Below are positions 1,915 through 4,900 of a stretch of 64,000 nucleotides of DNA, one piece after another. Numbering within the stretch: position 1 is the stretch's first letter; each line of letters begins with the position of its first letter. The stretch is from positions 33,365,456 through 33,429,455 of the forward strand of contig OZ024875.1 in NCBI GenBank assembly GCA_964017185.1. Reading direction: 5' to 3'. Below the pieces are notes generated by a model, which worked only from the letters and a program-made list of their open reading frames with translations, was not told where the DNA came from and ran no database searches. Made by a program: the position numbers and the translations under genes. Source of the stretch: Rugalucina vietnamica. Its lineage: Eukaryota; Mollusca; Bivalvia; Lucinida; Lucinidae.

Positions 1915-4900
1915 CTGAAGCTGCTACCTCACTCACGGGCAATTGTTGCTCATGGGCCATGAAGCCTATGACAGAAAATATGACGAAGCCGGCGAATATG
2001 CTCGTACAACTGTTCAACATAGAGATACACACGGCATCCCTGAAATAAATAAATAAATAAATAAATAAATAAATAAATAAATAAATAAATAAATAAATAA
2101 ATAAATAAAATAAACACATTTGTAGGGAGGGGGGTGGGGTCAGTGGCGCAGACGAGGTAGAACTGGAACATGGATCTTCTAGCCCTACATGGATCCCAGA
2201 TACATACTCTTATATTCTGTTTACTTGAATCGTTATGGGTTTTTTAACGTTTTTACTTATCATTTATTATCTTTTTTTACCATGTCAGTTTTATTAACTG
2301 GCTAAAAGACATCATTTTATGCTATTACGTTGGAGATATTAATTGTATCTACTGACTTGTATACGTTGTTATGGTAACGGTTGTAACTCCCCAGTGCTAT
2401 CAGTGACCCGAGACCGAGGCCATAGCTGAAGAAAACCTGAGTGCCAGCATCTATCCATACCTGGAAAACAATTAAAACATTTTGCACAATGAGATCAGAA
2501 CTAAATATAAAGTTAAGCATAATTTGAAACTTTTGATTTCTAGTACTGTTCAACAACCAGATTCATTTCGAATGGTCAGAACAAAGAACAACATTGTCCG
2601 TTACATTTTTGAAGAAAAACAGAAAGAACATGCTTTCCATGCGCAATGTGCGTAAAATGTTTCCTTCTATACATAAACCGGAAGTTCATCATCATGCTGA
2701 CCGTTTTGAACCTTGTTGCTGAATCAGTTAGAATGTGTCCTAAAATCAAAATCTGTGCTGAAGGTCAAACAAAAAAAAATCACAGATGACGAAATGGTGA
2801 TAAGTTTTGGCCTCCATTTTGTGTTGTTTTAATTAACTCTTTGGTTACCCTTACATTTAGCGTCGTCATGATCTACCCGAGCTCATGGTTTTATTCAGAC
2901 ACGTCTCATCTCATCGTCACACAGACACAAGTTAGAATGAATATTAGAAAACGTTATTATTTCTGGTTTTCTCTCGATGTAAGTTATAAATTTTCGCTGT
3001 TAAAACTGCGAACTAAAATGATGCCAATGGTATATGTACCATTATCCTTGAACGGTCTCTATGTGCAATGACGTTCATTGAATACGGAAGACAAATTGTA
3101 CAATTTGGTAGGATGCACTTATGCAATTGCAGTTTCTTTTTATTCGTATTCGCTTGACAACTACATATGATTTATAGCTGTAACGTTAAATATGTGGTCT
3201 TTGGTACACGTTAACTGACGGCTTGTCAGCACAAGATTGCTATTCTTTAACAAGTACAATCTGATGATAGCGATGACTATTTTAAAGACGATACTGTCAA
3301 TATTGGTACCAATTTGGTATCGATGACAATTCTGTAAGCTTCACACCTGAAACGTCAAATATACTTACGCTTGATTTCTTTATCTTTTCAAAGTCAGGCA
3401 AGAGGTAGAACTTGATGCCATCAAAAGCCCCTGGTAACGTAACACCTCGTATCAACAATATAGTCATCAAGATGTAAGGGAATATAGCGGTAACGTACAC
3501 AACCTATAAATCCATGCATATATATAATACTAGTAAATGTAGACAATATTGCGGTCACATACGCAACATATCAGCAGTGTACAGAAAACAGCGCTAACGT
3601 GTACAATTTGTAAACAAAAACATCCACAGTGTGGGGAAGATAACGGTCACGTACCTAATTATAAACAATAGCATTACTAATGTAGGAAAACAGCGACAAC
3701 ACCAGAGCACAACCTGAAGTGAATTCAATAGCATCAAAAAAGTAAGGAATCTAGCGGTCACGCGCATCGATAATGAAGGGAACACAGCGGTCACGTACAA
3801 TCTGTAAACAGTAGCATCACTACAATATAGGGAATATACATGTAGCGTTCACGTATATAACTCGTAAATAGCAGCACCAATAATATGGGCAACTGATGTA
3901 GCGGTCTAGTACACAACATGTAAACGATACTATCAAAATTGTAGGGAACTACTACAATCTGAAAACAATAGTATCAACAATGTAGGGAATATTGCGGTCA
4001 CATACACGGTCACATATAAGGAACAAAGTGGCCTTATAAATGACCTTTAAATAAAACTGATCACGTAAAGAATGCGATAAACAAAAACATCAATGATGTT
4101 GGAAATACAGGGGCCATGTACATAATCTGCAAACAGTAGCATCAAAAGTGTAGATAATACAGCGGTCACGTAAGCAAACTGATTTAGCATCACGAGTGTA
4201 GGGAATATAGCGATATTCGTGTGATATTCATGACGGCATAGAGTACCAAGTTAATAACCGGCAAGTTAATAATAGTTAACAATAGACAAATGCAAATACA
4301 TTTAACCAGTGTGATATTAAACACGACAGTTTCAACCAAAGCAACGCTTACATCCATACAAAAATCCATTTTTATCCTACCTTCCCAGTCCACTTGATTC
4401 CCTTCCATATACAAAAATAACAGAGGACCCAAACAGCCAATAGACAAAGAGCTACCTGCCATCGAATGGTCCCCGGCTGATCAATGCCTGGTGATATATC
4501 GAGAACATACCGTCTGAAAAAGACGATGATGTTATCAAGACAAAATGCTGGATAGTAGAGTATCCAGGCAACCTAAAGACACAGAGCCATCACGATGCCC
4601 GTGCAATGTATACCCTTGTCCATCCCTCCGTTTTTGTTTTTTTTTTTTTTTTTTTTTTTTTTTTTTTTTTTTTTTTTTTTTTTTTTTTTTGTTTGTGTGT
4701 GTGTGTGTGTGTGTGTGTGTGTGTGTGTGTGTGTGTGTTTTCAGACTCTGCAACAATGCATCAAATTGAATAATGAACATTAGATTAAAAGGGTAAAAAA
4801 TCAAGCCACAATGCAGTAGTAAACTGAAACTTTCTTGTTTCTATTTCCATCGTAAAACTGTTTACAATTCCTAGTATTTGAAAATAAAGAAAAAGAAAAG

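Follow-up and report, generated by a model that had tools for sequence, protein, structure and literature searches.

A relic array of intron-exon boundary copies upstream of exon 6 of an SLC6 gene

In the window, i.e., the whole stretch of 64,000 nucleotides that was analysed, the intron before exon 6 of an SLC6 gene, encoding a transporter of the neurotransmitter type, contains an array of diverged tandem units (3505-4212, minus strand). Each of its 14 units (33-63 nt) corresponds to approximately the terminal 9 nt of the intron followed by the initial 44 nt of exon 6. Very probably, the array is a relic mirage, left by the repeated short duplication of a segment that spanned the end of the intron and the start of the exon. 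The array is real but ordinary for this genome, a relic of a known kind. The more interesting part is its recurrence, as approximately one in ten exon records of the gene family has copies of this sort, and young and old stages are found within the one family.

The array and its host gene

Exon 6 (3369-3503, minus strand, 135 nt) is both the source of the array and its 3' limit. It matches the Pfam family PF00209 (SNF) at 6.9e-16 and, in a comparison with the PDB, SLC6 chains including GAT3, to which it aligns without gaps over 41 residues. The exon keeps the VVYVTA start of the SLC6 family. The 9-mer TACGTTACC occurs twice in it, at positions +7 and +63 and in differing reading frames, and this spacing of 56 nt is close to the unit length of the array. 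The upstream border of the intron is formed by exon 5 (4381-4513, minus strand), which ends in WTGK at the donor AAG/GTAGGA and whose own start was read by eye. Intron 5-6 occupies 3504-4380 of the minus strand (877 nt) and closes with the genuine acceptor AG at 3504-3505 (TTTATAG/GTT).

The genome assembly has a size of 1.09 Gb, and 29 paralogue matches to exon 6 were compared. The acceptor AG lies at the same place in 24 of them and three bases upstream in four further ones, whose matches begin late by one codon. Since this acceptor is common to the paralogues, the position of the intron is old and the array fills a pre-existing intron. In the paralogue L007, the reading frame runs through the acceptor site, and this gene seems to be without the intron.

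The array covers 708 of the 877 nt of the intron, and its units reach exon 6 at 3505. A first-pass annotation of the sequence had described about 13 imperfect units that end in the genuine exon as if it were their last repeat. This description is correct, the count being about 14 when the unit that abuts the exon is included. The interval 3369-4215 proposed there is that of exon and array together, the array alone being confined to the shorter interval given above. When the intron was aligned, with wraparound, to a cyclic 56-nt prefix of the exon, the score was 333, in comparison to maxima of 160 for 100 shuffled introns and 203 for 100 shuffled units. A unit of 9 nt of intron and 44 nt of exon, rescored with its own controls, reached 400, whereas 300 shuffled introns, 300 shuffled units and 200 stretches taken at random from the window gave maxima of 163, 204 and 85, respectively. 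The idea that the units might be no closer to the exon than shuffled sequence, put forward in the annotation as a way to overturn its own reading, can thus be discarded. The likeness of the units to the exon is secure over its first 40 nt and weaker beyond.

The units have aged considerably. Their pairwise identity is 62% on average (91 pairs), with 76% for the best pair and 63% for neighbours (13 pairs), and single units are 58-86% identical to their consensus and 48-73% identical to the exon. Tandem Repeats Finder, which had been suggested as a check, did not report the array, even at a score of 30. The present copy-number polymorphism envisaged earlier is unlikely, because the units are only 62% identical on average, adjacent units resemble each other no more than other pairs do and the array is invisible to this program. 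The close agreement between neighbour identity and overall identity also indicates that no recent turnover took place. An active VNTR minisatellite consists of near-identical units that can mispair, and even the most similar pair seen here falls short of this. The array is a relic, and a live minisatellite was rejected on account of both the divergence of the units and the silence of Tandem Repeats Finder.

Two features of the consensus bear on the ancestry of the units. At a GTT site of the exon, 10 of 13 units differ and the unit consensus reads GTG, and the consensus is also without one T of CCCTTAC. Either a single copy was amplified and gave rise to the units, or the exon itself later changed from GTG to the synonymous GTT. 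With the GTT/GTG site included, mismatches amount to 22%, 17% and 31% at the three codon positions, and the codon-position signal in the units is small once this shared site is set aside. The array contains 8, 7 and 18 stops in the three frames. All copies other than the 3'-most one have decayed without visible constraint.

Acceptor-like sequences in the array

Acceptors were scored with a small position weight matrix built from 25 paralogue acceptors, and scoring was repeated with 24 acceptors after leaving out the doubtful L007; both reference sets omit the four paralogues whose match begins a codon late. The genuine exon 6 acceptor scored 7.0, which is under the lower quartile of the 25-acceptor set (9.8). 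Without L007 it scored 6.9, and none of the 24 paralogue acceptors was as weak (minimum 8.1). Three decoy AGs, all on the minus strand like those that follow, scored above it, namely 3714-3715 (TGAATTCACTTCAG/GTTGTG) with 11.1, 4045-4046, which lies away from the unit junctions, with 8.1 and 3959-3960 with 7.7. The AG at 3655-3656 (6.99) is level with the real one and is immediately followed by GTACGT, and the AG at 4127-4128 (6.8) is slightly under it. With the 25-acceptor set, 3 of the 21 decoy AGs reached the score of the real acceptor, the fraction among the 1167 AGs of the background being 2.1% (p = 0.0098). When L007 was omitted, the corresponding figures were 4 of 21 and 2.5% of 1118 (p = 0.0017).

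The first-pass annotation had pictured the intron as full of decoy acceptors and donor-like GTACGT motifs. The part on acceptors is right in so far as a few decoys equal or exceed the real one in score. However, an AG is found within a few bases at only 7 of the 13 decoy junctions (25% of the 10-mers of the array hold an AG; p = 0.024), and the complete string AGGTTGTGTACGT is present at the real exon only. Exact GTACGT motifs occur in just two units (3798 and 3654) and once more in exon 6, so the intron can hardly be called full of them.

The strongest decoy, at 3714, is in frame with the exon (210 nt), but a stop is reached after 39 codons, and reading onward from any of the six best decoys runs into a stop ahead of exon 6. 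These stops, the weakness of the real acceptor and the excess of high-scoring decoys would all suit a functional array, in which decoys compete with exon 6, divert transcripts to nonsense-mediated decay and thereby set transporter dosage. We nevertheless consider such a role unlikely. The acceptor-like sequence was inherited from the exon's own acceptor, and an excess of decoys is therefore expected without any function. No extra conservation of the decoys was seen, and the scores come from a small matrix of 24-25 acceptors. In addition, two lancelet studies report that comparable arrays, termed mirages, do not disturb splicing (PMC3087553, PMC3902484). The decoys of the window are presumably ignored by the splicing machinery under normal circumstances.

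Founding duplication and recurrence in other genes

Unit models combining 0-15 nt of intron with 36-59 nt of exon were scanned against the intron, 384 models in total. The top model consisted of 9 nt of intron and 44 nt of exon (397), in good agreement with the earlier description of each unit as the intron end together with the first 45 or so bases of the exon. The best exon-only unit shown, with a length of 54 nt, scored 350. A caveat applies to the intronic part: the last unit has the real end of the intron as its edge, so the resemblance of this end to the units is not a fully independent indication that the acceptor was included in the founding duplication.

A founding unit made of exon sequence only, generated by exchange between the two TACGTTACC repeats, would make use of a 9-mer that is indeed present, and exon-only units of 54 nt reach the score of 350 quoted above. 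We regard this origin as decidedly unlikely and rejected it for its poorer fit in comparison to the 9 + 44 unit. Such an exchange would moreover leave a hybrid exon start, yet the family start has been kept. When random tails composed of the same letters were substituted from exon position 41 onward in the exon-only model, they equalled or exceeded the real tail at lengths of 44-56 nt; at 54 nt, for example, the best random tail reached 369, still below 397, versus 350 for the real exon tail.

According to the preferred reading, a duplication across the boundary, the founding tandem duplication would have had its ends within the intron, about 9 nt from the boundary, and within exon 6, about 44 nt from it. 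It would then have been repeated, by replication slippage or unequal exchange as we infer, until about 14 head-to-tail copies were present. As each copy carries only the first 44 or so nucleotides of the exon, only the 3'-most copy, joined to the rest of the exon, would be able to encode protein, and this would explain why the array lies upstream and ends in the real exon. Selection would keep one intact exon, and a working transcript would have to use the last acceptor. The remaining copies would have decayed after their formation, and a few decoy acceptors that look usable would be left, the use of which would introduce stops into the mRNA.

Copies of exon edges are not restricted to this gene. 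From the 20 best of 39 exon-6 places in the genome, 115 SLC6 exon records were predicted from their resemblance to three or more other loci; these predictions are mechanical, resting on locus-to-locus likeness, and their edges are approximate. Each record was compared with its own 1.5-kb flanks, amounting to 229 flank tests. Of these, 13, on 12 of the 115 records, gave z ≥ 8, and the next best value was 3.5, leaving a gap from 8.0 to 3.5. Of the 12 records, two belong to L037 and represent a single exon that is present in duplicate. The exon 6 of the window is among the weakest of the group in this single-copy test (z 8.2), because the units of its array are so diverged. When the whole-array score was applied to 30 stretches upstream of exon 6, the window stood out with z 12.2, followed by L002 with 6.4 and the next stretch with 2.2. 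In L002, the closest paralogue, there is a single decayed copy, which is displaced by 176 nt.

L046 (G000:C1:1219243-1219526) contains a younger array that is built similarly. Its six units of 45-49 nt each comprise about the final 12 nt of the intron and 32 nt of exon, share a mean identity of 84% (15 pairs, 73-89%) and keep the acceptor CAG in four of six cases. Of the arrays seen, that of L046 is the best candidate for a present length polymorphism, which is more plausible here. The window holds a further example outside the SLC6 family, upstream of an exon at 48440-48597 (minus strand; PF13660, 4e-16; 3' limit not set). With a MOFRL match in a neighbouring frame at 47118-48077, we take this gene to be glycerate-kinase-like on the strength of these two Pfam domains. 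The upstream copy of the exon edge (48625-48765, minus strand) is decayed and frameshifted and has lost the acceptor AG, and its local score of 148 compares with a maximum of 37 in 300 shuffles.

The locus L037 (8516-8853, 0-based; C9, near 2.724 Mb) has two copies of an entire SLC6 exon (GPGLALVVYPEA...) at a distance of 209 nt, which are 96% identical and encode the same peptide. The pair may represent a recent tandem exon duplication, possibly one of mutually exclusive exons, or an assembly error.

The recurrence of acceptor-side copies in several SLC6 genes could suggest that exon edges are preferred seeds of duplication, for example due to splice-site sequence or transcription-linked breaks. 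In line with this, copies upstream outnumber those downstream by 9 to 2 when L037 is left out, an excess that is suggestive only (p = 0.065). Two controls speak against it. In a rougher one, which included transposons and simple repeats, 40 of 150 random non-exonic segments had local copies. For a cleaner control, dispersed and low-complexity segments were removed, which reduced 330 intronic segments to 224. Of these, 36 (16.1%) had local copies, in comparison to 12 of the 115 exon records (10.4%; Fisher p = 0.19), although some of the 36 sit inside exon-edge arrays and the true background is somewhat lower. Exon edges are thus not enriched over intronic segments and, if anything, have fewer copies, which makes an exon-specific mechanism very unlikely. 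The first-pass claim that the exon seeded its own array therefore holds for ancestry; it does not extend to exon edges as favoured starting points.

Given this lack of enrichment, the mutational source looks like general local tandem duplication in these loci and not like a property of exons. Strong local direct repeats (18 rows) account for about 8% of the window. Local duplications of recent date, with 94-99% identity, lie at 8971-9678, 53925-54299, 41385-41598 and 20787-22098; their unit lengths are about 372, 185 and 53 nt, and they also include a pair separated by about 957 nt. Such recent events are in keeping with frequent local duplication.

The insertion of a dispersed minisatellite or transposon beside exon 6, alike by chance only, has next to no probability and was disfavoured: dispersed repeats are common in these loci, but the alignment score lies far over all controls, the exon is conserved across SLC6, and a DNA search of the genome found the array at one place (this search skips common words and is not proof of absence elsewhere).

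Relation to mirages and to other repeats

In lancelet genes, mirages are described as minisatellite-like tandem copies of intron-exon boundaries (PMC3087553). The mirage of the globin gene BflGb6 comprises the 3' end of an intron and the 5' part of an exon, with 81-100% identical units that number 6 and 3 in two haplotypes; splice signals are kept in many, though not all, units of the lancelet arrays, and RT-PCR suggests that regular splicing is undisturbed (PMC3087553). Host genes also include Adh3, with units of 10-72 bp, and the globin BflGb9 (PMC3087553, PMC3902484), and the further genes PGBD5 and TnC (PMC3902484).

As far as these descriptions go, the array of the window resembles mirages in several respects. 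Its units likewise span the intron-exon boundary of the host gene, are of minisatellite size, with 33-63 nt lying inside the range quoted for Adh3, and keep an AG near some decoy junctions, not all. In contrast to BflGb6, the units are more diverged (62% on average versus 81-100%) and more numerous (14 versus 6 and 3). To the extent that sequence features can define it, the array belongs to the mirage class. Its description as unusual in the first-pass annotation does not hold, since the class is already known from lancelets and local flank matches are seen in 12 of the 115 SLC6 exon records.

Unlike the known cases, the array of the window more likely resides in an animal other than a lancelet. 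Gene-family searches of the genome returned one troponin match over the cut-off and four strong matches to octopine dehydrogenase. Searches for the GFP and molluscan haemocyanin families gave no match, and their controls were silent too. From the distribution of these families among animals, a spiralian host that is not a lancelet would be the more likely one. Among the texts, seen in part, that literature searches on the repeat returned, we recognised no report of mirages outside lancelets. If the host is indeed not a lancelet, the mirage habit would be a by-product of frequent local tandem duplication and no peculiarity of that group.

Other known systems show partial likeness. Human internal tandem repeats at exon-intron boundaries are recent, lie in segmental duplications and in some cases alter splicing (PMC2812944). 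The array of the window shares with them its position at the boundary and its minisatellite-sized units, whereas it is old and presumed silent. In the model of Rogers, introns are gained by tandem duplication across AG/GT proto-splice sites (cited in PMC3087553). The duplication in the window similarly took in a segment containing splice signals; unlike in that model, its intron is old and the array fills what already existed. Repeats in earthworm introns have been called minisatellites, and the text seen does not state a derivation from exons (PMC12783039).

We tentatively propose, with rather less than even confidence, a wider picture outside lancelets. In a large gene family, about one in ten exons would be accompanied by copies of its edge in the adjoining intron, for the most part at the acceptor. 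Local duplication would continually supply intact 3' splice sites, and these could move the start of an exon, make an intron longer or serve as poison acceptors, with the array of the window as the old stage and that of L046 as the young one. With exon-edge arrays of both kinds, decayed and younger, in sister genes of the same genome, the life cycle of such arrays becomes open to testing, and the same arrays allow the use or neglect of decoy acceptors by the spliceosome to be tested.

Apart from these arrays, the window contains two related open-frame stretches at 6271-7116 and 11795-13503, the frame of the first ending at 7116 and the second running to 13503. Pfam searches of 6310-7113 and 12283-13503 at a threshold of 0.001 gave no match; the two stretches have what we take to be a B-box/TRIM-type look. 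Translations of a dispersed repeat family recur in many of the loci L032-L050.
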